Shown here piece after piece: positions 12,785 to 48,819 of a stretch of 64,000 nucleotides of DNA. Origin of the DNA: an uncultured Pseudomonadales bacterium (GTDB taxonomy: Bacteria; Pseudomonadota; Gammaproteobacteria; Pseudomonadales; Azotimanducaceae); the NCBI GenBank assembly GCA_938036875.1, contig CALHVX010000017.1:124001-188000 (forward strand), in the 5' to 3' direction. How positions within the stretch are numbered: position 1 is the stretch's first letter; each line of letters starts with the position of its first letter. The notes beneath the pieces were generated by a model, which saw nothing but the letters and a program-made list of their open reading frames with translations, did not search any database and was not told the origin of the DNA. The position numbers and the translations under genes are program-made.

Positions 12785-12839
12785 GTTTGTGCTCTCAACG
12801 CGCTATGCTTCCCCAAATTCTAACCCGCAACCGCTTGTT

Positions 12840-13736
12840 ATGCCGAATTTGTCGCCATCCATTCTTTTCTTGCTCTCCCACCCTGAAACCACGGCTAACG
12901 ATAACCACCAGCGACTACCCGCCGCGTTTGCCCAAGCCGGTTGGGATGTGGCTATCGCCAGCCACCGCAGTTTGCGGCTTGCAGACGGGGTTTTGGAGTG
13001 CAGCGCGGGCAAGGTTGCCCAGTTCAGCCGGATTTGGTTGCTGGGTTTTGGCGATGCGGCCAGCTTCTTTGACCGCATGCAGTTGCTATTGACCTTACCC
13101 GCCCAGCGTTTTGTGGTCACACCCACCGCGCTGCTGTGTTTGCACGGCAAGTTCCAGCACTTAACCCACTCACCTACCACCTACGTCAGCAACAACTTGG
13201 CGTATTTGCTAAGCCAATTAGTCCCTGGCGAGCGGTGGGTCGTGAAACCTACGGCCGGCAGCAATGCAGACGGGGTACGGTTTGTGGATACAGTCCAAGG
13301 TGCAGAGCAGGCGTTGGCGCCATTGCTCACCAACCATCGGTACGCCATATTGCAACGTTACGTGCCTGCGATAGAGGCGGGTGAAGTCAGAGTGTTGTGT
13401 GCCGCTGGCACACCCATTGCCAGCTACTTACGCGAGCCTGCCGCCAACGGCCTGACCAATCTAAGCCAAGGCGCACAAGCTAAGCGACTAACACCCAAAC
13501 CCGAAACCTTAAGCCTGGCGAGCGAGATCGCAACCGACTTGCTGGCCCAAGGGGTTGCCTATTGCGCCGTTGATATCGCTGGGGACCAGCTTATTGAAAC
13601 CAATATCGCCAACCCAGGAGGTCTGGGGACCCTGGCCGCCTTAACCGGCCACAACATAGCACCCAAAGTGGAAGCTGCGCTTAGTGCATGGTGGGCTCGT
13701 CACCCACAACCGGAGGCACAGACCCCGCAGCAATAA
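12840..13736 (+). CDS. Glutathione synthetase-like ATP-grasp protein
   Basis: Its 298 residues align with the GshB layout: a Rossmann-like N-terminal part, then an ATP-grasp domain with VVKPTAGSNADGVRF, ILQRYVPAIEAGEVRVL, a phosphate loop LTNLSQGAQ and the metal-ligating end VDIAGDQLIETNIANPGG. GshB joins gamma-glutamylcysteine to glycine. The N-terminal half departs strongly from E. coli GshB, so it may be a divergent GshB or a related ligase. ATG 12840 is preferred over the more upstream frame, which would run into the divergent nadA start. No clear ribosome-binding site is seen. Confidence 0.75.
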   Translation: MPNLSPSILFLLSHPETTANDNHQRLPAAFAQAGWDVAIASHRSLRLADGVLECSAGKVAQFSRIWLLGFGDAASFFDRMQLLLTLPAQRFVVTPTALLCLHGKFQHLTHSPTTYVSNNLAYLLSQLVPGERWVVKPTAGSNADGVRFVDTVQGAEQALAPLLTNHRYAILQRYVPAIEAGEVRVLCAAGTPIASYLREPAANGLTNLSQGAQAKRLTPKPETLSLASEIATDLLAQGVAYCAVDIAGDQLIETNIANPGGLGTLAALTGHNIAPKVEAALSAWWARHPQPEAQTPQQ

Positions 13737-14019: not shown

Positions 14020-14775
14020 TTAGGCAGTACCGCCATCAACCCGGAGCAGAGCGCCAGTGGTGAACGCGGCGGCATCAGATGCCAAGTACAAGGCAGCACC
14101 AACAATCTCGTTGGGTTGGCCGCCACGTTGCAACGCTAGGGTCGCTTTTGCGTTGGCGTTAAAGGCCTCTAAATCCCAGGCCTTGGAGATATCCGTTAGG
14201 AAGGGACCGGCAATAATGCAGTTGGACCTAACCTTGGGCCCATAAGCGAAGGCAAAGCTGCGGGTAATGGCGTTCAACCCAGCCTTAGCGGCGCCGTAGG
14301 GCTCTGACCCCGGGCTTGGGTTTAACGATGCAGTAGAGCTGATGTTGATGATGCAGCCGCCAGCACCCGCCGCCATACGCTCGCCGATCAAGGTACCCAG
14401 TCGAAATGGTCCTTTAAAGTTCACGCCCATGACCTTATCGAAGAGCTCTTCAGAGATATCGGTTAGCTTCTCGTATAAGGGTGACATGCCCGCGTTGTTG
14501 ATCAAGATATCCACCTTGCCAAATTCTGCGTAAGCCGCATCCGCAAGCTTCGCTAAATCATCCCAATGCCCAACGTGACAACCGTAGGGCAAGGCTTTGC
14601 GTCCCATCGCCCGAACTTCTTCGGCAACTTGCTCGCAACCTTCCAATTTGCGCGAGGCGATAATCACATCAGCCCCACGCTCGGCGAGCGCTAACACCAT
14701 CTGCCGACCTAAGCCCCGCGAGCCTCCGGTGACCAAAGCCACTTTGCCCGTAAAATCTAAAAGTTCGTCTGTCAT
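14020..14775 (-). CDS. Short-chain dehydrogenase/reductase (SDR)
   Basis: This is a classical SDR of 251 residues: cofactor loop TGGSRGLGRQ, NNAG motif INNAGMSP, catalytic Ser in NISSTASL and YGAAK (Tyr-x3-Lys). The residues after strand 2 (IASRK) suggest NADP(H). The substrate is unknown. It is divergent from the CoA-transferase gene, sharing a 97-base intergenic region, which hints at joint use in one catabolic route. GGAAAACAG precedes the ATG at a plausible distance. Confidence 0.9.
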   Translation of the reverse strand: MTDELLDFTGKVALVTGGSRGLGRQMVLALAERGADVIIASRKLEGCEQVAEEVRAMGRKALPYGCHVGHWDDLAKLADAAYAEFGKVDILINNAGMSPLYEKLTDISEELFDKVMGVNFKGPFRLGTLIGERMAAGAGGCIINISSTASLNPSPGSEPYGAAKAGLNAITRSFAFAYGPKVRSNCIIAGPFLTDISKAWDLEAFNANAKATLALQRGGQPNEIVGAALYLASDAAAFTTGALLRVDGGTA

Positions 14776-14872
14776 AGTCTGTTTTCCAGCAACCGCAAAA
14801 TTGATCCATGTGTCAGTGCAGCCGTAGACTGGACCGCAGCAGAATCATAACAATCCTAAGGGGCAACGCGAT

Positions 14873-16135
14873 ATGGGCAAGCTAGATGGACAAAGGGTAA
14901 CGACAACCAAGACTGGGCCGCTTGCCGGGTTCCGAGTGGTTGACCTATCCGCGGTAGTTTCTGGGCCGCTCACCGCCGCCCTGCTGTGCGATCAGGGTGC
15001 CGATGTCATTAAAGTGGAAAAGACAACGGGCGACATCCAGCGCCATGTGGGTAGCAAAAGAAACGGATTCTCTGGCTTCTTTCATGTGCTCAATCGCGGC
15101 AAACGCTCCATCGGTGCTGACATCAGCACCGATGCCGGTCGCGATATTGTGCATCGCTTGGTCAGCAACGCGGATGTGGTCATTCAAAACTTCCGCCCCG
15201 GTGTGGTGGATCGCTTGGGTATCGGCTTCCAAGCCCTGAGCAAAATCAACCCAGCGCTAGTGTATCTATCCATCAGCGGGTTCGGTCCAGATGGACCAAA
15301 CGCCAAAGACCGTGCCTACGATCCAATCATCCAGGCCTACTCAGGCATCGCTTCGGTGCAAGGTCGCATTCACCCAGAACACAGCGACAAACCCGAACAG
15401 GTCAACATGTTGTTACTAGACAAGCTGACCGCCCAAGCTGGCTGCCAAGCCATTACTGCAGCCCTGCTAGAACGCAGCAACAGCGGCCAGGGTCAACATA
15501 TCGAGCTGTCCATGTTAGACACGGCCATCGCATTTTCTTGGGCCGACGTTGCTGCGGACCTGATCTTGCAGACGGATGCAAGCAACCCAGCCACAGCACC
15601 CGACACCGTAGAGCAACGCCCGCCCATCGGCGCATCTGGCAGCGTGCAAGAATTTACCGACGGTTGGGGTGCCATCATGACCTTGTCCCAAGCCGAGTTT
15701 GAAGGCATGTGTATCGCCTACCAATTACCGCATTTACTAAAAGACCCACGATTTTCATCTTTGGATGCGCGCATGAACAACCGCGAGGCGGCGCGAGAAT
15801 TGATGCAAGGTGAAGTGGCAGATGCTGCGCGCAAGCTTAGCGTAGCCCAAGCCCAACAGCTGATGCGCGAGCACCAAGTTCCGTTTGCTCGGGTTCGATC
15901 GCTGCCTGAGCTACCTGATGACCCGCAAGTACAAAACAACCAAATGTTCAGACGCTTAGAACACCCCGTTGCCGGTCCGTTGCTTGATGCGCGGCCTGCG
16001 CCACGTTTTAGCCGTACGCCGGCTGCTCCAGGTGCTGCCGCTCCAACCGTTGGACAACACACCCAAGAAATATTAGCCGAGCTTGGTTTAGCTGACCAAA
16101 CGGCCAGCTACTACAAAGAGGGGATTGTTGTTTAG
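14873..16135 (+). CDS. CaiB/BaiF family III CoA-transferase
   Basis: This 420-residue family III CoA-transferase begins, after a short tail, with PLAGFRVVDLSAVVSGPL. It continues with LCDQGADVIKVE, RNGFSGFFHVLNRGKRS, DVVIQNFRPGVVDRLG and YLSISGFGPDGPNAKDRAYD, all standard CaiB/BaiF blocks. The Asp of the LLDKLTAQAG helix is the likely catalytic aspartate. It moves CoA between carboxylic acids, activating one at the expense of another acyl-CoA. AAGGGG lies upstream of the ATG. Its stop overlaps that of the convergent phosphoesterase. Confidence 0.92.
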   Translation: MGKLDGQRVTTTKTGPLAGFRVVDLSAVVSGPLTAALLCDQGADVIKVEKTTGDIQRHVGSKRNGFSGFFHVLNRGKRSIGADISTDAGRDIVHRLVSNADVVIQNFRPGVVDRLGIGFQALSKINPALVYLSISGFGPDGPNAKDRAYDPIIQAYSGIASVQGRIHPEHSDKPEQVNMLLLDKLTAQAGCQAITAALLERSNSGQGQHIELSMLDTAIAFSWADVAADLILQTDASNPATAPDTVEQRPPIGASGSVQEFTDGWGAIMTLSQAEFEGMCIAYQLPHLLKDPRFSSLDARMNNREAARELMQGEVADAARKLSVAQAQQLMREHQVPFARVRSLPELPDDPQVQNNQMFRRLEHPVAGPLLDARPAPRFSRTPAAPGAAAPTVGQHTQEILAELGLADQTASYYKEGIVV

Positions 16136-16746
16136 CTGCCCGGGGATTTCAGGTGCGCCTGCTTCCAGGGCGGTATCGCATCAAAATCAAAGGGGGCAAT
16201 ACCTTCATCGGTGATTTGCCAAATGCTGGCATCTGCTTTGCCAGCATCTAGCTCTAAAAAGCCAATGGTGCCGTAGCAGGTATCGTAGTTATGTGGGTAG
16301 GTAGGCGAGCCCGGGTTAACACAAAACACGTCTGCAATTTGCGCGATGCATTCTCTATGTGTATCGCCAGAGACAATGACGTCTGGGCGTTGCTCCGGGA
16401 AAAACCGTTCGATCCAACGATCTAAGGTAAAATTGGGTGGACGCTCGGGCACTGGCACATAGTGGGTGATGCCAACCCACAAGCCTTCTAAATTTAAAAG
16501 CCAAGCATCTTTCACGCGCGGATCATCTGGCTGAATGTCGCGCCCACCGCTACCGTCTTCGCCGTTACCCCGAGCACAGTACACGGGGGCAATTTGCTCC
16601 AACTGGTCCAACACCCAAAACTCGTGCACATCCCCACCATGAAAAATCATGTCCACACCCGCAAAGGCCTCAAACACCTGAGGCCACAACAACTTGCCCG
16701 CCTCAGGGAGATGAGTATCCGAAATCAAACCAATTTTTAGTGCCAT
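16132..16746 (-). CDS. YfcE-like metallophosphoesterase
   Basis: This 204-residue calcineurin-type phosphoesterase of the YfcE/MJ0936 group has metal-binding blocks GLISDTHLPEAGK, FHGGDVHE, ARGNGEDG, GITHYVP and VIVSGDTHRE. The last two deviate from the common THGH and GHTH forms, so metal geometry or substrate may differ. It is 15 bases downstream of the amidohydrolase, and its AGGAG ribosome-binding site overlaps that gene's stop codon. It is probably a small soluble phosphodiesterase acting with the operon's catabolic enzyme. Confidence 0.85.
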   Translation of the reverse strand: MALKIGLISDTHLPEAGKLLWPQVFEAFAGVDMIFHGGDVHEFWVLDQLEQIAPVYCARGNGEDGSGGRDIQPDDPRVKDAWLLNLEGLWVGITHYVPVPERPPNFTLDRWIERFFPEQRPDVIVSGDTHRECIAQIADVFCVNPGSPTYPHNYDTCYGTIGFLELDAGKADASIWQITDEGIAPFDFDAIPPWKQAHLKSPGS

Positions 16747-16761
16747 CGCTCGTCGCTGCTC

Positions 16762-18642
16762 CTAAGGCTGCTTGTTGTTTGCCGTTAAGGCTCGCCCAGC
16801 CCCTTTGCGCCCAAAATCTGCGGTGAAGTTCTGGCCATCCCACAGTTGCTGACCTGCCACAAAAGTCCCAGCAACAACGCCACCGGAACGATTGACCAAC
16901 TGCTCGCACCCAAACTCGTCACGATGAATCAACTCAATGTTGGCATCACCGTCATAGCTGCGCAGCTGTTCAGGGTTGAGCAAGGTTAGATCCGCTGCTG
17001 CACCCACTTCGATGGAACCCGCGGCTAAACCAAAAAATGCCGCAGGTTCTGACGTTAACCTGCGCAGCATAGTGCTAAACAAGGCTTCCGAGTCTTCTAG
17101 ACCAATGCGCAAGGCGCGCAGATTACCGTCGTAAAAGGCCATATTGGTCACGTGCGCGCCACTGTCGTTGAAGCCTGGCAACAAGACCGGGTCGAGCAAC
17201 AATTGTTTAATCACCTTTGGGTCGCGGTTAGCGTTGACGTAGTGCCAAATCAAGTCACGGTCAAAATGACGCAATAGGGCAACAAAGAACTCGCCGTCGC
17301 AGCGCACTGCTGCGCCTATCTCGTTGAACGCGCGGTTTTGCTCTGATAACTCAGGACCTTGGTACTGGGCTTCGGATGCACACCAAACCAGATAGTCTGT
17401 GTAAACCTCCGCCATGCTCCGCCCTGCCCACTGAGGTACCGGCGAACGGTAAACCACCATGTCGGCCAAATCTCGAGTCAAAAATTCGGTTTCCATCCGC
17501 AAACGACGACGCAAGTGACCAAGATTCCAACCGGACTTACCCCTTGCCCACATCTCACGAAACGCTTCCACATATTCCGGTTGGGATAGCACTGCAACCC
17601 TGGCCGCGCGATCGTCCAACTCGGTCTCGATCAGCTGCCGCATCAGCGGATTTGCTTCGGCCAACGGGCTTACCGCCCCTTCAGACCAAATCTTGAACGG
17701 AGCGGCCAAGGCTTGCATGCGAAAGTGACCGTCCGCCAGGCTTGAGTTCAGCAAACGTGAGAACAACAACGCCCGGGCTTTAGTGCTGCGGTTGTTGACC
17801 GAATCGATAGCAGCAAGCGCCGTGATCTTTAGCGGCTTGCCATGCAGGCGTGCGCTGGTTAGCGCAAACAAGCGCAGGGTCAACGCACTATCATCGGTCG
17901 CCGGGGTCATTTGCCAAACCCGGTTGTGTTCACGCACAACATCGGTCAACTGTTTGTATTCCGGATATTTGGCGTACTGGGTCGGAATACGTTTCGCTAG
18001 GTTCGGCTGGTTCGCTAAAAAATGCAGAGGCAACCCGTCCGTGGAAAACCCAACGTAACCCTGGTGCATGCCTTGCTCAAGCAATTCGGTCATACGACTG
18101 AGTTCAGCCGTTGTGGGTTGCCGATTGATGCTTGCATCTAACCCCATCACGGCAATGCGTAGCATTGAATGGGGAATCAAAGGGGCAACGTTTGGTCCTA
18201 AGGGCAACTCGTTGAGGTGGGCTAGATACTCAGCGCTGGTCTGCCAGGTGGCACGTTCAGCCACTTGTTGCAGCACCGACTTCGGAATGTTCTCAACCCG
18301 GGCAAAGCAGTCCACGATAGGATCTTGCTGGCCGTCCCTTAGTGCGCCGTAGGCCAAACCTATAGAGCAATTGCCAACCACCACCGAGGTAGTGCCGTGG
18401 CGTACTACTTCAGGTAGACCTGGGATCAGCTCAACCTCTAGGTCTTCATGGGTGTGGATATCAATCAAACCGGGCACTAAAAATTGGTTTTCCGCTTCTA
18501 TGCAAGTGCGGGCCTGAGCGATGGGCAGCTGCTGACCAATAGCGCTGATACGACCATCGGAAACGGCAACATCGGCCATAACGCCTGGGCCACCGCTACC
18601 ATCAAATAGCTTGGCACCGCGAATCAGTAAATCCCAACCCAT
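16762..18642 (-). CDS. Amidohydrolase of the N-acyl-D-amino-acid deacylase group
   Basis: This 626-residue amidohydrolase has the entry strand LLIRGAKLFDGSG, the zinc motif DIHTHED, a later GYVGFSTDGLPLHFL block and the C-terminal catalytic region GFNDSGAHVTNM followed by LTSEPAAFFGL, as in D-aminoacylases. These hydrolyse N-acyl-D-amino acids or related amides. It is longer than the best-studied D-aminoacylases (about 480), as are many proteobacterial members of unknown substrate. No signal peptide is seen. It lies 2 bases after the MFS gene, so transport and hydrolysis appear coupled. Confidence 0.88.
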   Translation of the reverse strand: MGWDLLIRGAKLFDGSGGPGVMADVAVSDGRISAIGQQLPIAQARTCIEAENQFLVPGLIDIHTHEDLEVELIPGLPEVVRHGTTSVVVGNCSIGLAYGALRDGQQDPIVDCFARVENIPKSVLQQVAERATWQTSAEYLAHLNELPLGPNVAPLIPHSMLRIAVMGLDASINRQPTTAELSRMTELLEQGMHQGYVGFSTDGLPLHFLANQPNLAKRIPTQYAKYPEYKQLTDVVREHNRVWQMTPATDDSALTLRLFALTSARLHGKPLKITALAAIDSVNNRSTKARALLFSRLLNSSLADGHFRMQALAAPFKIWSEGAVSPLAEANPLMRQLIETELDDRAARVAVLSQPEYVEAFREMWARGKSGWNLGHLRRRLRMETEFLTRDLADMVVYRSPVPQWAGRSMAEVYTDYLVWCASEAQYQGPELSEQNRAFNEIGAAVRCDGEFFVALLRHFDRDLIWHYVNANRDPKVIKQLLLDPVLLPGFNDSGAHVTNMAFYDGNLRALRIGLEDSEALFSTMLRRLTSEPAAFFGLAAGSIEVGAAADLTLLNPEQLRSYDGDANIELIHRDEFGCEQLVNRSGGVVAGTFVAGQQLWDGQNFTADFGRKGAGRALTANNKQP

Positions 18643-18644
18643 CC

Positions 18645-20006
18645 CTACAACCCCTCATCAACCCGTCGAATGCTCGGTGAAAACAACAACAGCAGCGCTA
18701 CGGCGACCAAAAATGCACCCCCCGACGCCATAATGCCCCCAGCCACACTGGTGTATTCAGCAATATAGCTGATAGGAATAAGACCCAGGGGCATCAAACC
18801 GTGGGACATCATATCAATGCTCAAGATACGTCCACGCATATGGTCGTCTACCTGCATCTGGAGCAAGCCGCGATTCAACGACATGTTCCAAGCGCTAACC
18901 CAGCCGGTGAGCGCCATCACCAGCAATGCGGCTAAGGTGGTTGTGGTAAACCCAAACAACAAGGTTAGACCAGCCCAAGCAAAGGCACTCACCAACAGCC
19001 ACAACGCCTTGCGCTTCAGCCCGCCCATGGTGGCGAGCATCAACGAACCGATGATTGCGCCCAAACCCATTGCAGACACTAGGTAACCCAAGTCTTCCGG
19101 TCCTCCGCCCAGGATGTCTTGGTTAAACGCGGGCAGCAAGGTGTTTACCGTCATACCAAAAAGAAAGGGCACTATGCCAAGCAAGATCAGACCGAACACC
19201 GGTGGATGCGCCCAGACATAGCGCAGCGCATCCGCTACATCGGTCCAAGGCGACTTGTCATCGGGCGGCTGCACCTGCCCAGGCTTGGATACACCCAGCA
19301 TGGTTAGGCCGCTAATGAGGTACAGACCGGCGATTACAAAATACAGGATGCCAACGCCGTAGGTAGATGACGTGTCCCCATCAGCAAAGTAGGCAATCAG
19401 CAGCCCAGCCAAAGCCGGGCCTACAATCCGCGACAGATTCCAGGAAGTGGTGGTGAGCGCCATGGCCGTGAAGATCAAGCGCTCGGGGATCAGCTCGGGG
19501 ACAAAGGCCTGGCGGGCTGGCATCGACAACGCAAGGATCGAACCGTTAAAGAAGCCAAACCAAATGAAATGCCAGAAGGTCACCTGATCGTTGAAGATAA
19601 TGAGGGCCATGATCAGGGTCGCAATGGCGTTCAGCAGTTGTGCTAGCACAATCACCCGACGTTTCGGTATTCGGTCCGCTAGCACCCCACCCCACAGGGC
19701 AAACAACACCGTAGGCAACATAAACGAGATGGTGACCCAACCTAGATCCAGCGGTGATGAGGTTAAGGTGTAGACCAGCCAGCCGCGCGCGATGATCTGC
19801 ATGTTCATGGCAAACGAAGAGCCAAGGCTGCCGATCCACAACCATCGAAAGTCGGGAATCTCCAATGCAGAAAATATGTCGCGAGAGGCCAAATGAGAGC
19901 CGACTAGTAGGGATTTATAAGCATACCACGCAACAAGGTTAGCCTCGGCAGCAAAGCTTAACCAACATCTGAGGTGCGGCGGTGTTGCACGGAGTGCACC
20001 GCTCAA
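18645..20006 (-). CDS. MFS transporter, EntS/MFS_3-like
   Basis: This 12-helix major facilitator has its first helix at FRWLWIGSLGSSFAMNM and the cytoplasmic loop GVLADRIPKRRVI between helices 2 and 3. It resembles the EntS/MFS_3 exporter branch, so efflux is as likely as uptake. The first 38 residues from ATG 20006 look unlike the family and leave only 34 bases to the divergent kinase. A TTG at 19892 (LASRD) may be the real start. It is the first gene of the MFS-amidohydrolase-phosphoesterase operon. Confidence 0.87.
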   Translation of the reverse strand: MSGALRATPPHLRCWLSFAAEANLVAWYAYKSLLVGSHLASRDIFSALEIPDFRWLWIGSLGSSFAMNMQIIARGWLVYTLTSSPLDLGWVTISFMLPTVLFALWGGVLADRIPKRRVIVLAQLLNAIATLIMALIIFNDQVTFWHFIWFGFFNGSILALSMPARQAFVPELIPERLIFTAMALTTTSWNLSRIVGPALAGLLIAYFADGDTSSTYGVGILYFVIAGLYLISGLTMLGVSKPGQVQPPDDKSPWTDVADALRYVWAHPPVFGLILLGIVPFLFGMTVNTLLPAFNQDILGGGPEDLGYLVSAMGLGAIIGSLMLATMGGLKRKALWLLVSAFAWAGLTLLFGFTTTTLAALLVMALTGWVSAWNMSLNRGLLQMQVDDHMRGRILSIDMMSHGLMPLGLIPISYIAEYTSVAGGIMASGGAFLVAVALLLLFSPSIRRVDEGL

Positions 20007-20040
20007 CTAGGCTGCCTTAGTCAAGAAATGGGGGCCAACG

Positions 20041-22803
20041 TTGGCCGAGCAATTGTTACATCGCACGGGCAAAACGCAAAGAGACAGGCCCAAAGCAGAC
20101 CTAGCTACCCGCTTTATCGTCCACTGTTTACTCATCTCTACGCTGGGTTTAAGCAGCCACGCCACTTTTGCACAAAATTCAGATAATTTCGGCTTAGGCC
20201 AGCTAACACAAGAGCAACTGCTCGAGGCCGAGGCCGATCCCGAGACCGATGCCAACAAACGCGCAGAGCTTACCTTGTGGTTAGCCTATCGACTACGCAG
20301 CGACAGCCAAAGCAGCCAGTCCTGGCATCAAAAAAGCCAAACCATGCTGAGCAACTCCGATACCTACCACCCAGATCTACGCCTGGTTGGCCAGTTGCTC
20401 ACCTGCGATCTGCGGCAACGAGACGGTTTAATGCCCCAGTCGACCTGCTTGGCGCTGCACTCTCAAGTAGACGCCATGTCGAAGCCTCAGCTAACCGCCA
20501 TCGCCTGGCATCTGCTGAGCAATCTATACCTGCGTTCTGGTCAACTGGTTCAAGCATTGGAGTTCAACCAGCGAGCACTGATGGCAGCCGAGCGCTCGGG
20601 CCTACGGTCGGAGTTGTCAGAGATCCACAACTCCCGCGGTGTTACCTACCTGGAGTTAGGGCTGCCAATTCAAGCATTCGCACATTTTGAGTTAGCTCAC
20701 CAATATCTAGCAGACACACAAAACCCTTCAATCGGTCGTATTCTGGCGTTTAACCTTGGGGTCAGCCAACTTCGCGCCAAGCTCTACGAAGAGGCCAAGC
20801 AAACCTTCGTTGCCGCCCTACCCTGGGTTAGCGAAAGCGGCAGCACGAACTGGATGACCATTGCGTTGACCTATCTAGCACGAGCCGATATTGGGCTTGG
20901 CGATCCAGATGCTGCGATTAGTCGCCTGCAACCACATCTGCTGGCACATGCCAAGGACATCGATAGCAACACCCATCTCAATGCCGAGGCAGCGTTGGCA
21001 GAGGCCCTCTTGGCCCAAGGCAAAGTCGACCAAGCACTGGCAAAACTTAAGCTAGCGTTGCAACAAGCAAAAGCAAGCAACAACAAATCTCGAGCAGATC
21101 AACTGCAATTGATTCTAGCCCGAGCGCACAACCACGCTGGCAATCCAATGGCCGCACTGGACACCTTGGAAAAGCTAAAGCCTAACCTTGACCAAGAAGC
21201 ACCAACCGACAGCCTGACTCAAGCGCTAAGAATTAGCGCCTCTAGCCACGCCGCTTTAGGCGACTACGCCGCAGCGTTTGCCGAGCAAGCTCAAGCTCAA
21301 GAGGCAGAACGCCTAACAGAAAACAGTAGCTTCAAAACTCAGCTATCGCTTTTGCACGCAAAGCTAGACCGAGATACCAAGGCACACGAGTTGATGCTCT
21401 CGCAACAGCGCGAACGCGAGCTTTTCATGCAGACCCGGCTAAGCCAAACCGTGCTGGTCGGCTCCTTGTTGCTTGGTGGGCTGTTGGTCTTAGTTGTCTA
21501 TTTGCTGCTATCTAGAATTTTCCAAAAACGGCTGGCTGAGCGTGAGCGTTATGCTAGCTCACGCTTGGAAGCCCAAGTTGTGGAGCGTACCCAAGCCCTT
21601 GAATCCACCATGGCAGCACGGCTCAACGTTGAGGAAGATCGGCGGCTGCTTCAGCAAAGCTTGTTTGAAGGCGAAAAACTTCGGGCGCTGGGGCAGTTAA
21701 CCGGGGGCGTTGCGCATGATTTTAACAACCTAATGACGGTGGTCACCCTGAGTGCAGAGCTCCTCAAAGATGACCTAACAGAAGATCAAACCCGGGCTGA
21801 GCAATCGGTCAATGATATTTTACGTGCCGCTGAGTCTGCCGCCGACATCACCTCTGGCCTGCTGGCTTACGCTCGCAAGCAGCCGCTCAAGCCTGAGCGC
21901 TTAGAGTTGCAGGAATTTACCAACGAGTTGCTGCCAATCTTCCAACGTAGCCTGGACGAAAATATAACCTTGCGCATCAACGCTCCCCAGCGCTGCCAGG
22001 TAGCCGTTGACCGCTCTCAGCTCACCACCTGCTTGCTCAATCTATTGTTAAATGCCAAAGAAGCGCTAACGGAAGGCGGCGCTATTGTGATCACGGTAGA
22101 AGCGGCGCCTACAGAGCAAGGTGAGTTTGTGCGCATATCGGTGACCGACAATGGGCGTGGCATGCGCGCTAATGAGCTTAAGCTTGCAACCGATCCATTT
22201 TTTACCACCAAAGCCACCAACCAAGGATCCGGGCTTGGGCTTAGCATGGTGTTTGGGTTCGTTAAGCAATCCGGTGGCGACCTAAATATTACCAGCACCG
22301 AAAATTTAGGAACCGAGGTCACCATTTCGCTGCCAACCGTGGACGTGGATAGCGAGCCCGAAAACGACCTGCTGGTGACCCAACCCATGGCCCTACCCGC
22401 ACATGCCAAAGTCTTAGTCGTGGAAGACCAAAAAGAAGTGCGGGATGTACTCCAACGGCTGCTGGAATCACTTGGGCTCGACGTATCCATCGCCATCAGC
22501 GGCGATGCTGGCAAGCAAATGTTAATCGACAACCAGGTACCTGACCTACTCATCACCGACATCGTGATGCCCGGTGATACCTCCGGTTACGAGCTTGCCG
22601 CCTTTGCACAGCAGCGCTGCCCAAACTTGGCCATTTTAATCATCTCTGGCTACTCAGAATCCCATGACAACGAATGGCCGTTCCTACACAAGCCCTTTTC
22701 GCTTAACGAGCTGCGGGACAAAGTCACCCGGCTGCTGGCAGCTCAAGCCAGAAACACCACTACCCCAGCGGTGACGCCGCTGCCGTCACACGCCTCAGGC
22801 TAA
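20041..22803 (+). CDS. Hybrid sensor histidine kinase with periplasmic TPR sensor
   Basis: This 920-residue protein has a signal segment ending near SHATFA, then a long periplasmic TPR-like helical region (about 60-440) and one transmembrane helix near 470-492. A coiled coil and the kinase core follow: HisKA with LTGGVAHDFNN (His559), HATPase motifs NLLLNAKEAL, VTDNGRGM and GSGLGLSMVFG. A C-terminal receiver has phospho-acceptor Asp840 in LLITDIVMPG and Lys in LHKPF. The TTG start has GGGGG 7 bases upstream. No DNA-binding regulator is beside it. It is divergent from the MFS operon, whose substrate or envelope state it may sense; this is inference. Confidence 0.9.
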   Translation: MAEQLLHRTGKTQRDRPKADLATRFIVHCLLISTLGLSSHATFAQNSDNFGLGQLTQEQLLEAEADPETDANKRAELTLWLAYRLRSDSQSSQSWHQKSQTMLSNSDTYHPDLRLVGQLLTCDLRQRDGLMPQSTCLALHSQVDAMSKPQLTAIAWHLLSNLYLRSGQLVQALEFNQRALMAAERSGLRSELSEIHNSRGVTYLELGLPIQAFAHFELAHQYLADTQNPSIGRILAFNLGVSQLRAKLYEEAKQTFVAALPWVSESGSTNWMTIALTYLARADIGLGDPDAAISRLQPHLLAHAKDIDSNTHLNAEAALAEALLAQGKVDQALAKLKLALQQAKASNNKSRADQLQLILARAHNHAGNPMAALDTLEKLKPNLDQEAPTDSLTQALRISASSHAALGDYAAAFAEQAQAQEAERLTENSSFKTQLSLLHAKLDRDTKAHELMLSQQRERELFMQTRLSQTVLVGSLLLGGLLVLVVYLLLSRIFQKRLAERERYASSRLEAQVVERTQALESTMAARLNVEEDRRLLQQSLFEGEKLRALGQLTGGVAHDFNNLMTVVTLSAELLKDDLTEDQTRAEQSVNDILRAAESAADITSGLLAYARKQPLKPERLELQEFTNELLPIFQRSLDENITLRINAPQRCQVAVDRSQLTTCLLNLLLNAKEALTEGGAIVITVEAAPTEQGEFVRISVTDNGRGMRANELKLATDPFFTTKATNQGSGLGLSMVFGFVKQSGGDLNITSTENLGTEVTISLPTVDVDSEPENDLLVTQPMALPAHAKVLVVEDQKEVRDVLQRLLESLGLDVSIAISGDAGKQMLIDNQVPDLLITDIVMPGDTSGYELAAFAQQRCPNLAILIISGYSESHDNEWPFLHKPFSLNELRDKVTRLLAAQARNTTTPAVTPLPSHASG

Positions 22804-23672
22804 GCATAAGAAAACACATAGCCTGCATCGCTGCTCACGACATAGCCGGCGGTTGGCGTGGCAAAGTGGGTTCCAATGATCAACGTCTGCGTGTCGCTAT
22901 AACGAGCCAAAAAAGCGTTGCGAGTGGTAACACCCAAGTTGCCATCAACATCCGCTAGCGATGCCCACTGCGGGTGCAAAATTTGGCAGGGATGATGGAT
23001 CATGTCGCCGGTGATCACCGCGGATTGGCCTTGGGATTCAATGCCTACGCTCACGTGCCCGGGCGTATGCCCTGGTGTCGAAATCAAACGAACGGCGTTG
23101 GTTACTTGGTGGTTAGCAGGCACCAGATCCGCTAAGCCCGCAGCAAAAATGGGTTGCACCGAATCTTCCACCACCGGGCCATACTCTTGCTCTTGGGTTT
23201 GCCAGTGAGCCCACTCTTGTTGTGCATACAGATAACGTGCGTTGCCAAAAGTTGGTTGCCAAGCGTCATTCTGCCAACGCGTATTCCAGCCAACATGGTC
23301 CACATGCATGTGTGTGCACAACACCACATCCACCGCATCGGGATCAAAACCCAAGGCTTGAAAGCGTTCCAAAAAATTCGTTTGCATTTGATGCCAGCGG
23401 GGATAAACACGCTCTTTGTCGTTACCGATGCAGGTGTCCACCACAATCAACTTGTCGTCTGCTTCAACCACCAACGCATGCATACTGAGGATTATGCGAC
23501 CCTGCTCATCGATAAAGGGTTGTAGCCAGGGTACCGCCAGCATCAACTCGGGTGTTGCCTGAGGCAATAAATGTGGACCCAGTGAGGCGGTCGTTAGCTC
23601 TACTATTCGCGTAATTTTTACACCGCCAACCTGCCATGTCAGAGGTTGCATCAGCCGTTGTGTAGGGTTCAT
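22800..23672 (-). CDS. MBL-fold metallo-hydrolase (lactonase/hydrolase type)
   Basis: This 290-residue metallo-beta-lactamase-fold enzyme has the metal motif CTHMHVDHVG, the second histidine region STPGHTPGHVSV and ITGDMIHHP. This pattern is typical of the lactonase/glyoxalase-like hydrolases often annotated as class B beta-lactamase-related; the substrate is not predictable. ATG 23672 has AGGTGGA 5 bases upstream and is preferred to the in-frame GTG at 23681. Its stop overlaps the stop of the convergent hybrid kinase, leaving no room for a terminator. Confidence 0.88.
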   Translation of the reverse strand: MNPTQRLMQPLTWQVGGVKITRIVELTTASLGPHLLPQATPELMLAVPWLQPFIDEQGRIILSMHALVVEADDKLIVVDTCIGNDKERVYPRWHQMQTNFLERFQALGFDPDAVDVVLCTHMHVDHVGWNTRWQNDAWQPTFGNARYLYAQQEWAHWQTQEQEYGPVVEDSVQPIFAAGLADLVPANHQVTNAVRLISTPGHTPGHVSVGIESQGQSAVITGDMIHHPCQILHPQWASLADVDGNLGVTTRNAFLARYSDTQTLIIGTHFATPTAGYVVSSDAGYVFSYA

Positions 23673-23763
23673 CTTGTCCACCTAGCGTCATATGGTTATC
23701 GCATGTTGTCAGAGACGGTGGACCGGGTAAAATGCGCTAACCACCCTCAGTTCAGGAACAGCC

Positions 23764-24546
23764 ATGCAGTTTGGAGATGTTAGCGTTAGCCATCATGGTC
23801 ATGTTGCCGTGCTCGAGATGCAACGCCCCCCCAACAATTTTTTTGATGTCCATCTGATCAACCACCTCGCGGATGCATTTGATGCACTCGATGAAGATGA
23901 CAACATTCGGGCACTGGTTCTAGCCTCTCAAGGCAAGCACTTTTGCGCGGGGAACAACTTTGCTGATGCGAGCGGGCAAGAAGAACGAAAAAAACGCACC
24001 ATTGCCAGCGGCAACCCGCTGTACACCGCTGGGGTCCGACTTTTCAAAAACGCCAAACCTGTGATTGGCGCTATCCAAGGGGCAGCGGTTGGTGGCGGCT
24101 TTGGTCTGGCCGTCATGCCCGATTTTCGCGTGGCTTGTCCCGAGGCGCGCTTCACCGCCAACTTCGTCAAGCTCGGTTTTCATCCTGGCTTTGGCCTCAC
24201 GCACACCTTGCCAAAAATTATTGGTGAACAAAAAGCGAACCTGCTGTTTCTCACCGGGCGTCGAATCGGCGGCGAGCAAGCCCAAGCTTGGGGCCTGGTG
24301 GACAAACTGGTTTCAGCAGAAACTTTGCGCGAGCAAGCCATTGCCTTTGCTGCCGAGATTGCTGAAAACGCACCGCTTGCACTCAAGAGCGTTCGCGCCA
24401 CCATGCGCCAAGGCATTGCCGATGCTGTGCAGCGGCAAACAGACCATGAATACGGTGAGCAATTTCGCTTACAGCAAACCAATGACCACAAAGAAGGTGT
24501 GTTGGCGGTGGCAGAACGCCGGCCAGGCAAGTTCACGGCAAGCTAA
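23764..24546 (+). CDS. Crotonase-fold protein lacking the usual catalytic glutamates
   Basis: This 260-residue enoyl-CoA hydratase/isomerase-family protein has oxyanion-hole segments GKHFCAGNNF and GAAVGGGFGLA. Aligned without gaps to classical hydratase, the two catalytic Glu positions are Gly (in GGGFGLA) and Phe (in TANFVKLG). It is therefore unlikely to hydrate enoyl-CoA by the standard mechanism. Related family members share the ANFxxLGFHPGFG block. Isomerase, hydrolase or C-C lyase chemistry on a CoA ester is possible. AGGAA precedes the ATG. Its neighbours are the MBL hydrolase and the GPH transporter/SDR operon. Confidence 0.9.
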   Translation: MQFGDVSVSHHGHVAVLEMQRPPNNFFDVHLINHLADAFDALDEDDNIRALVLASQGKHFCAGNNFADASGQEERKKRTIASGNPLYTAGVRLFKNAKPVIGAIQGAAVGGGFGLAVMPDFRVACPEARFTANFVKLGFHPGFGLTHTLPKIIGEQKANLLFLTGRRIGGEQAQAWGLVDKLVSAETLREQAIAFAAEIAENAPLALKSVRATMRQGIADAVQRQTDHEYGEQFRLQQTNDHKEGVLAVAERRPGKFTAS

Positions 24547-24556
24547 TCAGGCTCAG

Positions 24557-25963
24557 TTAAGCCGTGTTAGCAACGGCTGGTATCTGAGTGTTATTGCGCT
24601 CATCCAGTTGCCTGCGGATCTCGGTGCATTCTTCTTCGTTGAGCGAAAAACGCCGAAACATGAGTGCCGCCATCAAGTAGCACGCGAGGGGCAGCAAGCC
24701 ATACAAACCAACCATGGTGAGCTGTACCTTCATGGTCTGCTCCACATTGGGCACAAACCCGGCCAAACTTAGTGCTATGCCGGTCAACATCAACATCGCC
24801 CCGAGCGCACACTTGTACACAAAATTCCAAGCGGCAAAGTAGGACCCTTCTTTACGCTCACCGGTATGCAGCTCATCAAAATCAATCACGTCACCTTGAA
24901 TGGACGGGCTGATGGTACCCCCAGCACCCGCTGCAAAACCCGCAGACGCTGCCAGAACAAAGATCAGCCACAATCGCGCTGTTAGGCTATCTAAGAACGG
25001 CAGCGCAAACATGCCACCAAAAGACACCCCAGATAGCAGCAGCGAGATAATCCACAAGCGGCGTTTGCCAAAGCGACGCGACAAAGGAATCCAAAAAGGT
25101 ACCGACAGGCTGGATGGTGCCATGTAGGCCAAAACCATCAATGGCGCCATATAAGCTGCACCCACCACATATTGCGCGACGTATAGAGTGAGCACACCAA
25201 TCGCCGCTGAGCCAATGTGCTCTACAAAGGTCACACCAATCAGCAAACGCGCGTGGCGGTTATTCCAGACATCTTTGAACGCTGCATAAGGTCGGGATTG
25301 CATTGGGGCTTGGCTGTGCTGGGGTTCGCGCAATGCCGGCAGAGATATCAAAATGAGTACAGCCATCACCCCACCGGCAACCAAGGCTAGTTGGAATGCG
25401 GTAGCGCGGACTTCTTGCGGACCTTGGGACTCCGCAGAGATCAACAGGTACATACTGGCTAAGGACAAAATGCAGCCAAAGGTATAGGCCGCATGACGCA
25501 CACCAAACAGCCGGCTACGCTCATGGTAGTCCGTAGTTAGTTCAGCACCGAGCGACAGATGGGGCACAAAGAAGATGGTCATGGCGGAGTAGTACCCCAC
25601 AATGCCTACGGCCATCCAGAGCGTTAAGCCAGCGCCGGTGAGGCTGGCCGGCGGCGCAAAGACCATCAAAAAAGCGCCTATGATGGGAACAATGCTTCCG
25701 AGCAGCCAAGTTCGACGACGACCAAACTGGTGTGTGGTCTTGTCGCTTAAGTAACCGACCAACGGATCGGATACCGCATCCCATAACCGCGACAAACCAA
25801 AGATCAAACCCATAACACCCGGCGCTATGAGCAGCACGTCGGTTGAAAACTTCATGACGTACAGTCCAAGCAGCAGGTACATGTAGCCTGCACCCACCGC
25901 TGGGGCGCCGTAGGCCCAGACAACTTTTGTCGGAACCCGGGCGGTATTCCTGTTGGCGCTCAA
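24557..25963 (-). CDS. GPH-type MFS transporter (MelB-like)
   Basis: This 468-residue, 12-helix carrier of the glycoside-pentoside-hexuronide:cation symporter type shows the family block DAVSDPLVGYLSDKT after helix 2 and FGRRRTWLLGS. Typical substrates are sugars or conjugates taken up with Na+ or H+, but many marine homologues sit in catabolic clusters with SDRs and have unknown substrates. The only usable start is TTG 25963, two bases after the stop of the upstream SDR, so it is translated by coupling. It ends 10 bases from the convergent crotonase. Confidence 0.88.
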   Translation of the reverse strand: MSANRNTARVPTKVVWAYGAPAVGAGYMYLLLGLYVMKFSTDVLLIAPGVMGLIFGLSRLWDAVSDPLVGYLSDKTTHQFGRRRTWLLGSIVPIIGAFLMVFAPPASLTGAGLTLWMAVGIVGYYSAMTIFFVPHLSLGAELTTDYHERSRLFGVRHAAYTFGCILSLASMYLLISAESQGPQEVRATAFQLALVAGGVMAVLILISLPALREPQHSQAPMQSRPYAAFKDVWNNRHARLLIGVTFVEHIGSAAIGVLTLYVAQYVVGAAYMAPLMVLAYMAPSSLSVPFWIPLSRRFGKRRLWIISLLLSGVSFGGMFALPFLDSLTARLWLIFVLAASAGFAAGAGGTISPSIQGDVIDFDELHTGERKEGSYFAAWNFVYKCALGAMLMLTGIALSLAGFVPNVEQTMKVQLTMVGLYGLLPLACYLMAALMFRRFSLNEEECTEIRRQLDERNNTQIPAVANTA

Positions 25964-25965
25964 GG

Positions 25966-26742
25966 TTAAGCGTTCTTGATCGTCAACCCACCATCAACGG
26001 GTAAGGTTACCCCGGTAATAAAGCTTGCTGCAGGCAGCACCAAGCTCAAGGTGCCATGTGCCACTTCTTCTGGTTCAGCGTAGCGTTTAAGGGCAACTCG
26101 CCGACGGGCAAAAATTAGTTTTTGTTCATCTGGAATGGCATCCGTCATGCCGGTTCGAATCGGCCCAGGGCAAACACAATTCACCGTAATACCTTCGCCT
26201 CCCAACTCCACCGCCAAGGAGCGGGTCAAGCCAATCACACCCGTTTTCGCGGACGTGTACTGACTGCCAAACTTGGTTGCGCCCAAACCCTCGGTCGAAG
26301 CGATGTTGACAATGCGCGGGTGCTCCGCATCACGTAAGTGCGGCAAACAAGCCCGGATGGTGTGTACGTGCGCATCCAGCAGCACCGCAAAGGTTTTGCT
26401 CCAATGGCTTAGGTAATCTGGATGATCAATGGGGGTGCTGCTGGAGATACCTGCGTTGTTCACCAATATATCAATGCCGCCAAAGTGTGCGGCAATCTCT
26501 TCAATGGTTTTGGCAATAGCACCAGCATCCGCCAAATCTAGAGTCCAACCACGCGCTGTCGAGCCATCTTTCTCTATGCCATCAACCACCGCTTGCAAAG
26601 GTTCGGCATTCAGGTCAATGGCGGCAACCTTGGCGCCTTGGTCCGCAAAGAGTTCAGCCGTTGCACGACCCATACCGCTGGCGGCGCCGGTGACAATGGC
26701 AACCTTCCCTTCAATGGACCGACTTAACTTAGATAGCGACAT
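25966..26742 (-). CDS. Short-chain dehydrogenase/reductase (SDR)
   Basis: This 258-residue classical SDR has TGAASGMGRAT (cofactor), an acidic residue after strand 2 in AAIDLNAEP suggesting NAD(H), NNAGISS, catalytic Ser in NIASTEGL and YTSAK. The longer open frame to 26856 is rejected because a strong ribosome-binding site lies directly before ATG 26742. It is coupled to the GPH transporter (2-base gap) and follows another SDR by 40 bases, so the three probably form one operon acting on one substrate. Confidence 0.92.
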   Translation of the reverse strand: MSLSKLSRSIEGKVAIVTGAASGMGRATAELFADQGAKVAAIDLNAEPLQAVVDGIEKDGSTARGWTLDLADAGAIAKTIEEIAAHFGGIDILVNNAGISSSTPIDHPDYLSHWSKTFAVLLDAHVHTIRACLPHLRDAEHPRIVNIASTEGLGATKFGSQYTSAKTGVIGLTRSLAVELGGEGITVNCVCPGPIRTGMTDAIPDEQKLIFARRRVALKRYAEPEEVAHGTLSLVLPAASFITGVTLPVDGGLTIKNA

Positions 26743-26744
26743 AA

Positions 26745-26752
26745 CCCCTCCC
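26745..26752 (-). promoter_or_regulatory. Ribosome-binding site fixing the SDR start at 26742
   Basis: GGGAGGGG on the minus strand ends two bases before ATG 26742. It is among the strongest Shine-Dalgarno matches in the window and rules against the 38-codon upstream extension. Confidence 0.75.
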
Positions 26753-26782
26753 AGAAGAAATGAAAAACAAGCAGCCAAAAAG

Positions 26783-27637
26783 CTAGGCTGAACCCCCTTC
26801 AAGCATACCCGAGAACACATCCAGATTGGGACCACGGCGCAAATGGTGACCACCATCCACCGGGAGGTTTACGCCGGTAATCCAGCTTGCCTGAGGCCCA
26901 CAAAGGAAGCGCACGGCCTGGGCAATGTCAGACACAACCCCCGTTCGTCCTATAGGCATGCAGGCTAAGTAGTCTTGATGCACTTCATCCGTGGCAAACA
27001 AGCCAACCGCAATATCGGTGTCCACCAACCCTGGGCAGACACTGTTAACCCGTATGCCAGCGCTACCCAATTCATCCGCAAGGTTACGCACCAGCATGTC
27101 TATGCCCGCTTTGCTGACGCAATACGCACTCATAAACCGATGGGAGCGCAATCCCGCAATAGAGGAGATCGCACACATAGCGCCGCCACCATTATTACGA
27201 ATGGCCTGACCTGCCTGTTTAAAGGTGAAGAAGGTACCATCCAGATTCGTTTGCATAATTTGCTGCCACTCATCAGAGGTAGTCTGCAACGATGGGCTTA
27301 ACCCGCCAACGCCTGCATTAGCCACCGCAATGGTGAGTGGATGCCGCGCGTTGGCAGCTTTAACACTCTCAGCAACCGAGGCTTCATTCGACACATCGCA
27401 AGGCTCGCTGAAGACCTCAACGCCATTGGCGATCGCCTGGGGCTGCAAGTGAGCAACCGCCGCGGCCAGCTTGTCCTTGTTGCGTCCTAATATGGTGACA
27501 TGCACCCCATCTGCCAGCAGCCCTTCAGCGCAAGCGAGGCCAATACCGCTACCACCACCAGTGATCAGTGCATGTCCATTGGTTGTGCTCACACGATGAG
27601 TTGAGTTGGTCTGATCGGCAGTTGCTGTACCTGACAT
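26783..27637 (-). CDS. Short-chain dehydrogenase/reductase (SDR)
   Basis: This 284-residue classical SDR from ATG 27637 has CGGAGA upstream; the track frame to 27673 is not needed. Motifs are TGGGSGIGLAC, VANAGVGG in place of NNAG, catalytic Ser in AISSIAGL and YCVSK. The residues after strand 2 (LGRNKDK) favour NADP(H). It has an about 20-residue Thr/Ser-rich N-terminal tail before the fold. It heads the SDR-SDR-transporter operon and is divergent from qmcA. Substrate unknown. Confidence 0.9.
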   Translation of the reverse strand: MSGTATADQTNSTHRVSTTNGHALITGGGSGIGLACAEGLLADGVHVTILGRNKDKLAAAVAHLQPQAIANGVEVFSEPCDVSNEASVAESVKAANARHPLTIAVANAGVGGLSPSLQTTSDEWQQIMQTNLDGTFFTFKQAGQAIRNNGGGAMCAISSIAGLRSHRFMSAYCVSKAGIDMLVRNLADELGSAGIRVNSVCPGLVDTDIAVGLFATDEVHQDYLACMPIGRTGVVSDIAQAVRFLCGPQASWITGVNLPVDGGHHLRRGPNLDVFSGMLEGGSA

Positions 27638-27744
27638 AGTGGTCTCCGAGTTAATAAAAAATGCTGATAACACCAGTATACGGCAGCAAATTTGCGGTGT
27701 TGTATACTCAGGCTTCGCTAGCCAATCGCAAACAGGAAGTTCCT

Positions 27745-28653
27745 ATGGGTTTTGAAATTAGCACCATCATCTTGTTGGTCTTGGCGGTGGTTGTAGCCAG
27801 CGCCATCGTTAAAATTGTGCCTCAGGGCGAAAACTGGACAATCGAACGTTTCGGCAAATACACCCGGACCTTGCCATCCGGCTTAGGTATTTTGGTGCCT
27901 TTCATTGAACGCGTTGGCCGCAAGCAAAACATGATGGAGCAGGTGCTCGATGTGGCCGGCCAAGAGGTCATCACCAACGACAACGCAACCGTGATCACCG
28001 ATGCCGTCTGCTTCTTCCAAATCTCCGATGCCGCCGCGGCCAGCTACGAAGTGAACAACCTCGAGTACGCCCTGCAAAACCTGGTTATGACCAACATACG
28101 TGCCGTCATCGGCTCCATGGCCCTAGACGAAACCTTATCCATGCGTGACAAGATCAACCGCCAGGTGCTCGAAAAGGTCGACGAAGCCACGCGTCCTTGG
28201 GGGCTCAAAGTGACGCGCATCGAGATCAAGGACATTAAGCCACCGCAAGATTTGGTGGATGCCATGGCCAAACAGATGAAAGCAGAGCGCGAAAAGCGGG
28301 CCACTATCTTAGAAGCCGAAGGTTATCGAGAGGCAGAAATTGCTCGCGCCCAAGGTGAGAAGCAGTCGGCGGTACTCGAAGCAGAGGGCCGGCGCGAGTC
28401 GGCGTTTCGAGATGCAGAGGCTCGCGAACGTTTGGCGGAAGCAGAGGCCAAAGCTACCGAAACCGTTTCCATCGCTATTCGCAACGGTGACCGCCAGGCC
28501 ATCAATTACTTTATCGCCCAGAAATACACCGAAGCCGTGCAAGCCATTGGCACCTCCAACAACTCCAAAGTGGTGCTAATGCCCTTTGAAGCCGGCAGCT
28601 TGCTGGGCTCCATCGAAGGCATTCGTGAGGTGCTTAAGGACGACAGAGGATGA
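27745..28653 (+). CDS. SPFH/Band-7 membrane protein QmcA-like (paraslipin)
   Basis: This 302-residue protein has an N-terminal membrane helix (about residues 5-23), then an SPFH/prohibitin domain ([40 protein letters not shown]) and an Ala/Glu-rich coiled coil with [17 protein letters not shown]. These flotillin-like proteins form large membrane assemblies and modulate FtsH or other membrane-protein turnover. ATG 27745 has AGGAAG upstream. It overlaps nfeD by ATGA, the classic QmcA-NfeD (YbbK-YbbL type) pair. Confidence 0.93.
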
Positions 28654-29093
28654 GCTTCCCACCCCTCTACCTATGGTTGAGTGTAGGCATTGTGCTGCTC
28701 ATCATCGAGATGCTTGGGTTTACCGGCTTCTTTCTCGGCATGGCGGCTGCCGCCTTTGTCACCTCGGCTTACGTTTGGCTAGCGGCACCCGCCGACATTT
28801 GGTCCGGTATCTGGGTCTTCGCCCCGCTCGCCGTACTGTTTTCCTGGGCCTATTGGCATTTCTTTCGAGATTTCAACAGCGTCACCGATGCCCCGGAGCT
28901 GAATCAGCGCAAGGCTAAGTTAGTGGGCAAAAGTTTTGAGTTGACCCAGGATATCCATGCGAACCCGACTGGGTACTTTCTTGGCGATACTCGCTGGCAA
29001 GTAGCCAGCCAGGAAGAAACCATCAGCGCAGGCACCAGGGTAGTGGTGCAACGCGTACGTGATGATGGGGTTTTGATCGTTGCTGCCAGCTAG
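28650..29093 (+). CDS. NfeD family membrane protein
   Basis: This short NfeD of 147 residues has three or four membrane helices in the first 75 residues ([47 protein letters not shown]) and a C-terminal OB-fold-like domain ([28 protein letters not shown]). It is the usual partner of the SPFH protein encoded immediately upstream, with a 4-base overlap. It ends before the hairpin that separates it from tRNA-Lys. Confidence 0.92.
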
Positions 29094-29158: not shown

Positions 29159-29234
29159 TGGTGGGCCGTCCGAGACTTGAACTCGGGACCAACAGGTTAA
29201 AAGCCCGGTGCTCTACCAACTGAGCTAACGGCCC
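29159..29234 (-). tRNA. tRNA-Lys (anticodon TTT), CCA encoded
   Basis: This is a complete cloverleaf: a 7-bp acceptor GGGCCGT/ACGGCCC, a D-arm with GCTCAGTTGGTAGAGC, anticodon loop CTTTTAA with anticodon TTT, and a T-arm with GTTCAAGT. The discriminator is A, followed by an encoded CCA at the 3' end. The first anticodon-stem pair (C27:U43) is mismatched; the other four pair. Its position after queE-queC is the pseudomonad order. Confidence 0.97.
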
Positions 29235-48778: not shown

Positions 48779-48819
48779 CTTTTACCTACTGATTGAACCT
48801 ACAGATTGAATCGACTTAA

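Follow-up and report, generated by a model that had tools for sequence, protein, structure and literature searches.

Gene content of the block

We analysed a block of metabolic genes at positions 14020 to 27637 of a 64,000-nucleotide stretch of DNA from an uncultured Pseudomonadales bacterium, called the window below, and compared it with related genomes. Conserved synteny, a site lacking the block in relatives and a gene tree demonstrated that the block is more than a chance assortment of genes. The original prediction had listed ten genes here (three SDR oxidoreductases, a coenzyme A (CoA) transferase, a crotonase, two hydrolases, a phosphoesterase and two MFS carriers), and all ten were found as open reading frames within 14020-27637 using open reading frame, Pfam and NCBIfam checks. 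There were no Ns between positions 11000 and 31000. The list was therefore correct for these ten genes, but it overlooked a hybrid histidine kinase in the middle of the block. The window belongs to a 4.74 Mb draft genome that is 96% complete (G000). The search set consisted of G000 and 116 genomes of the same family and order, from which 120 stretches were fetched. Genes were counted by tblastn or genome searches, and presence counts are affected by contig breaks and by the choice of fetched loci.

The outer gene of the island, A (14020..14775, minus strand), encodes an SDR oxidoreductase with the motifs TGGSRGLG and YGAAK. It is followed by B (14873..16135, plus strand), a family III (CaiB) CoA-transferase with a fused start, C (16132..16746, minus strand), a YfcE-type metallophosphoesterase, and D (16762..18642, minus strand), an amidohydrolase of the D-aminoacylase fold. 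Gene E (18645..20006, minus strand) encodes an MFS_3 transporter that resembles EntS and scores 162.3 of 324 bits against the EntS model, under its cut-off. The overlooked gene F (20041..22803, plus strand) encodes a TPR-containing hybrid histidine kinase of 920 amino acids. G (22800..23681, minus strand) is an MBL-fold hydrolase of the lactonase/methyl parathion hydrolase group with the motif CTHMHVDH, and H (23764..24546, plus strand) is a crotonase-fold protein with G114 and F134 at the glutamate positions of the hydratases. The block continues with I (24557..25963, minus strand), an MFS_2/GPH-type symporter, and the SDR oxidoreductases J (25966 to about 26742, minus strand, start inferred from relatives) and K (26783..27637, minus strand). 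K was scanned against NCBIfam only, and its nearest model was PRK05875 with a score under the cut-off. Judged by strand and spacing only, K-J-I and E-D-C form short operons and A, B, F, G and H are single genes. Family scans detected no integrase or transposase among genes A to K.

Within the island F was detected in the window copy only. Its homologues were distant (32-37% identity) and found in 5 of the 117 genomes, including a second copy in G000 (E<=1e-80). One relative of F, with 37% identity and one in-frame TGA, is located at G000 C135 12889-15570.

Gene order in relatives and the site without the island

One flank of the block carries nadA and an ATP-grasp gene and the other carries SPFH-NfeD genes, a tRNA-Lys gene and queC-queE, all named from sequence and gene order. 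A common order was met in relatives: nadA, ATP-grasp, A (reverse), x1-B-x3-x4 (forward), C-hydrolase-E-G (reverse), H (forward), I-J-K (reverse), tRNA-Lys and queC-queE. Completeness varied, and the genes adjoined nadA and/or tRNA-Lys/queC. The fuller forms add x1, an MFE-2-type SDR, and x3/x4, a two-subunit acyl-CoA dehydrogenase; A is divergent from x1 in these forms and from B in the window. The most complete form, with 13 families, was that of G003. G049 and G069 carried A, x1, x3, x4, D, E, G, H, I and J, and G020 had the same set minus G. In G031 and G055 the island consisted of A, x1, C, an alpha/beta hydrolase, E, G, H, I and J, with an additional x4 fragment in G031.

No island family was detected at 57% identity in nine nadA-to-queC loci (G001, G002, G026, G027, G033, G060, G066, G070 and G072). 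A tRNA-Lys gene was present in all nine, 53-593 bp from the ATP-grasp match, and queC was within 719 bp of it in six. In the other three (G001, G027 and G060) tRNA-Lys and queC are separated by other DNA of 2.8-4.3 kb. Both marks of a genomic island, a site without it in relatives and a tRNA edge, were thus seen at 9/9 island-free loci, which supports the proposal of an accessory block set between core genes. In the window the tRNA-Lys(UUU) gene (29159..29234, minus strand) marks the conserved far boundary of the site. When the co-occurrence check called for by the original prediction was run, the block genes were found to co-occur and to stay together in relatives, so the independent scatter that it had named as contrary evidence was not what we observed.

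Several neighbouring genes were also noted. The ATP-grasp gene (window 12771-13736), named by eye, adjoins nadA and is present at the island-free sites too. SPFH/stomatin-like and NfeD-like genes (window 27661-29093), also named by eye, lie between K and tRNA-Lys. As part of the island this pair was found in the window only, and we consider it an extra there because K directly adjoins tRNA-Lys in G003. A CYP153-like P450 stands beside J in G020, G049 and G069 (L039, L040 and L041); it was dropped as an island part because its three carrier genomes are one genus.

Inheritance of the island

To follow the inheritance of the island, a quick maximum-likelihood tree with SH-aLRT (Shimodaira-Hasegawa-like approximate likelihood ratio test) support was made from 58 nadA proteins. 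Genomes were scored as carriers if one fetched locus held at least 3 island families at 57% identity or more, or if 1-2 families were present at nadA. The 30 carriers (24 with at least 3 families and 6 with 1-2) all fell in a single clade of 33 rows with SH-aLRT support of 98, and 0 of the 25 rows outside this clade were scored as carrying. The three non-carriers inside the clade (G032, G056 and G036) have x1 elsewhere in the genome; G032 also has A, and G adjoining H. The carrier state required 3 changes on the nadA tree as compared to a mean of 19.7 for shuffled states. Two kinds of loci fell below the threshold and were scored as without the island: I-like genes of 44-47% identity at nadA in G009, G034, G058 and G064, and pairs of H and x1 paralogues outside the nadA locus in G008, G024, G037, G051 and G071.

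Protein distances tracked those of nadA in 10 of 12 families (A, x1, C, E, G, H, J, I, D and x4), with r of 0.58-0.83, a value equalled in no more than 1 of 999 permutations. The distribution fits a single acquisition at the base of the clade followed by mostly vertical descent with losses. We also searched for spread beyond the family, and it was unsupported among the 80 of 298 relatives covered by a scan with the MBL profile. Among these, with MBL neighbourhoods only considered, the island gene order was found in L096, L097 and L100 alone, all from records named Gammaproteobacteria or Pseudomonadales.

CoA-transferase, crotonase and carrier

B matched PF02515 with 331.6 bits (cut-off 23.3) over residues 17-397. 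It reached the cut-off of no substrate-specific model; the best was succinate-glutarate CoA-transferase with 220.9 of 750 bits. A second CaiB-like gene was noted elsewhere in the window (46883-49956) beside a propionyl-CoA synthetase-like gene, named by eye from its N-terminal sequence. The carrier I passed Pfam MFS_2 (267.8 bits against a cut-off of 27) and did not reach the cut-off of TIGR00792 (205.7 of 231.35 bits).

H aligns with crotonases of solved structure. In 29/29 homologues of at least 50% identity, G114 and F134 occupy the positions of the two glutamates of 3pea, which we take to be the catalytic residues of the hydratases. The crotonase family assignment was upheld, but the hydratase residues are absent and, as both glutamates are replaced in all 29, the label hydratase is unsupported. 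Structures 6sl9 and 3hrx also have no glutamate at H positions 114 and 134. Paralogues of H (60-63%) and x1 (67-70%) lie near each other away from the nadA island in 7 genomes (L180-L183 and L185-L187), and where neighbours were listed, hydrolase and transporter genes were seen by eye around these pairs.

Two hydrolases and an exchangeable slot

The predicted model of D (mean predicted local distance difference test score (pLDDT) 87.9) has the D-aminoacylase fold, with a Z score of 40.6 and root-mean-square deviations of 3.3 and 4.2 over 469 and 462 residues aligned to 9gv8 and 3gip, respectively (VIA-align). Residues H63, H65 and C92 were invariant in 20/20 homologues and aligned with those of solved deacylases; we take this HxH and cysteine to be metal ligands, as in D-aminoacylase. 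D493 was also invariant among the 20 homologues. From about residue 205 to 510, where the later ligands would fall (presumably a histidine pair and an aspartate, as in D-aminoacylase), D cannot be aligned by sequence to the solved deacylases.

In other genomes the slot of D is held by alpha/beta hydrolases (x8 or abh2). Occupation of the slot was exclusive: among 38 genomes, which are related and hence not independent, D was found in 10, x8/abh2 in 11 and both in none. The island may have recruited D, as D homologues elsewhere stand without other island genes. Homologues of 42-50% identity with no other island genes nearby were seen in G048, from the same family as G000, and in 11 further families of the order (L044-L055). 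A plasmid origin of D was considered and rejected; 117 plasmid records matched, all below 60% identity, and only 4 had a cover of at least 80% in a single place.

G falls in the methyl parathion hydrolase/lactonase group by its sequence as well as by its predicted fold (mean pLDDT 83.8), and its HxHxDH metal motif was invariant in 16/16 homologues. No curated equivalog cut-off was reached by G, the best score being 72 of 425 bits for YtnP, with 68.7 of 360 bits for AidB.

The window copy lacks x1, x3 and x4

We searched G000 for the three genes that the fuller forms add. For x4, the large subunit, no match at E<=1e-100 was found among the best 16 of 55 candidates; the relatives with an island x4 showed 76-100% identity. 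All 58 candidates for x3 were scored and gave 18 matches of 26-36% identity, none an orthologue, as compared to 59-71% for island x3 copies with the same query. No x1 orthologue was found among the best 20 of 87 candidates, the best match being 55%; island copies of x1 had 69-100% identity and paralogues elsewhere in the family 64-73%. The nearest structures of x1 were MFE-2/17beta-HSD4 and those of x4 were 4x28, presumably the two-subunit FadE26/27, and 6wy8. The nearest models of x3/x4 were IpdE2/PimD and PimC, with scores under the cut-offs. Judged by gene content, the window holds a reduced form of the island lacking x1 and the x3/x4 pair. The predicted dehydrogenase steps in G000 must then be supplied from elsewhere in the genome, or the pathway must be truncated. 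G000 does have other dehydrogenases, namely the 18 matches to x3.

The start of B differs in the window. In the 7 relatives compared, B starts near MSGPLTGF and in 6 of these the end of x1 is directly ahead. The window B has 14 extra N-terminal codons, MGKLDGQRVTTTKT (14873..14914, plus strand), an apparent deletion scar in which 5 of the first 7 residues are identical to the x1 start MGMLDGK. The sequence is most simply read as the outcome of a deletion that joined the x1 start in frame to B, with x3 and x4 lost too. A chance resemblance of so short a start is not strictly excluded.

Candidate promoter elements

An element, GTAGACTG, is located upstream of B (14824..14831, plus strand). The same element was found upstream of x1 in 8 relatives (G005, G010, G011, G016, G043, G046, G054 and G065) among 25 listed x1 starts, and 33 times in the 1.99 Mb of fetched sequence, in which overlapping stretches are counted twice. 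A second element, GTTGCAAAT, was found upstream of H in 10 genomes and at 9 other places in the fetched sequence. It was present in 8 of 14 G-H intergenic regions and absent from 6, the window included. Both elements look like conserved parts of promoters in some genomes. The common regulation envisaged by the original prediction thus received only a hint from these elements in part of the genomes, and no common regulator of the block was found.

Proposed function and alternative explanations

Taken together, these data make it rather probable that the block is one inherited CoA-dependent catabolic island, acquired at the base of the clade and eroded or rerouted in the window genome. Its function is probably the breakdown of an organic acid. 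The two-subunit dehydrogenase and the MFE-2-type enzyme suggest an acid that is bulky, alicyclic or branched and that perhaps forms a lactone, and the gene set fits action on one compound. The fuller form would import the organic acid or lactone through symporter I (or E), and lactone, ester or amide bonds would be cleaved by G together with the enzyme of the slot (D or an alpha/beta hydrolase). The SDRs A, J and K would oxidise alcohol groups and B would carry out CoA transfer. The bulky acyl-CoA would be desaturated by x3/x4, H, not a standard hydratase, would rearrange or hydrolyse the product, and x1 would oxidise the 3-hydroxyacyl-CoA. Of the genes for this predicted pathway, the central oxidation genes x1 and x3/x4 are missing from the window copy. 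No description of this block was found in the literature searched, at the level of titles and abstract openings. We suggest, tentatively and with more doubt than confidence, that this may be an undescribed pathway fixed in the clade in which an MBL lactonase-type enzyme and an exchangeable slot act ahead of a CoA-transferase, a two-subunit dehydrogenase and a non-hydratase crotonase, and that the fusion in the window puts B under the promoter of the lost x1.

Several results weigh against one inherited catabolic island. Content is variable, with B in 9/38 and x3 in 13/38 genomes, counts that are partly low because of contig ends and the choice of fetched loci. Outside the island there are also orthologues of I, and both H and x1 have paralogues there. 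Distances did not significantly track nadA for K (r 0.35, n=8, 67 of 999 permutations as high) or for B (r 0.35, n=6, 206 of 999 as high). B of G030 has no x1 ahead of it, so the two genes are not always joined. No NCBIfam model that names a substrate reached its cut-off for A-E, G-K, x1, x3 or x4, and no thiolase or CoA ligase was found among A-K, x1, x3 and x4.

The variable content would also be expected if the tRNA-Lys site were a hot spot that gathers unrelated metabolic genes without a shared pathway. The lone I-like genes at nadA in four genomes, the x1 genes at nadA in G012 and G044, where an H homologue lies about 7 kb away on the opposite side, and the restriction of F and SPFH-NfeD to the window all point in this direction. 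Identical families in identical order across many genera, the confinement of carriers to one nadA clade, the repeated pairing of H and x1 paralogues elsewhere and the exclusive hydrolase slot argue against such a mosaic, and we consider it unlikely. The fused start of B and the absence of x1, x3 and x4 orthologues from the assembly could instead mean that the island is decaying and functionless in G000. The missing GTTGCAAAT between G and H points the same way with little weight because 5 of 13 relatives also have no GTTGCAAAT there. All ten reading frames are open, however, the HxHxDH of G, the residues H63/H65/C92/D493 of D and the SDR motifs are intact, and B is in frame behind the element that stands before x1 in relatives, making a dead remnant quite improbable.

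Two more specific functions were weighed against the inherited organic-acid island. The nearest named relatives of x1, x3/x4 and H include steroid side-chain enzymes, all under curated cut-offs, and steroid catabolism genes are reported for OM60-clade marine bacteria (PMC4810484), which would be compatible with a steroid or sterol side-chain degradation cluster. The ring-cleavage hydrolase HsaD was not found in G000; at E<=1e-70 it matched in 8 of 117 genomes, in every case under the model cut-off. Of these eight, G018 alone belongs to the island clade, with island pieces only. The sensitivity of this test is in doubt because no control genome of 14 matched, and side-chain breakdown without ring breakdown is still compatible with it. 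A steroid-ring pathway is unlikely, and a steroid or sterol side-chain cluster as a whole appears very unlikely. Equally little probability was given to detoxification or signal quenching, in which G would be an N-acyl homoserine lactonase or phosphotriesterase and E an efflux pump. The nearest folds of G (methyl parathion hydrolase and quorum-quenching lactonases) and the likeness of E to EntS favour such a role, but G is far from any equivalog cut-off, and the CoA-transferase, dehydrogenases and SDRs of the block would be left unexplained.

With the inherited catabolic island as the preferred reading, a loose list of enzymes becomes a defined, clade-wide island with set edges and fuller reference forms (G003, G049 and G069). 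Natural gene-loss variants of the island are now defined as well, and together with the fuller forms they make the question of the substrate testable. The results also call for caution in reading a pathway from the window alone, as key oxidation genes are missing and the annotated hydratase has no hydratase residues.

Comparison with known systems

Like tRNA-flanked genomic islands, the window block lies near a tRNA-Lys gene and relatives have an island-free site; unlike them, it has no integrase among A-K and is clade-wide with mostly vertical descent. D shares its fold (Z 39-41), the HxH and the GNC motif with D-aminoacylase, N-acyl-D-glutamate deacylase and the PpOngB deacetylases, but is about 150 residues longer and only 22-25% identical. 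G has the fold and HxHxDH of methyl parathion hydrolase and the N-acyl homoserine lactone and dihydrocoumarin lactonases, but is 20-25% identical to its best fold matches and reaches no equivalog cut-off of the group. The x1, x3 and x4 of the fuller island are of families similar to those in modules for steroid side chains and pimelate, which we take to be FadE26-27/Hsd4A and PimCD. The island differs from these modules in that its x3/x4 score under the curated cut-offs and that x1, x3, x4 and HsaD were not found in G000. It also has a CoA-transferase replacing the ligase, extra hydrolases and a GPH-type carrier.

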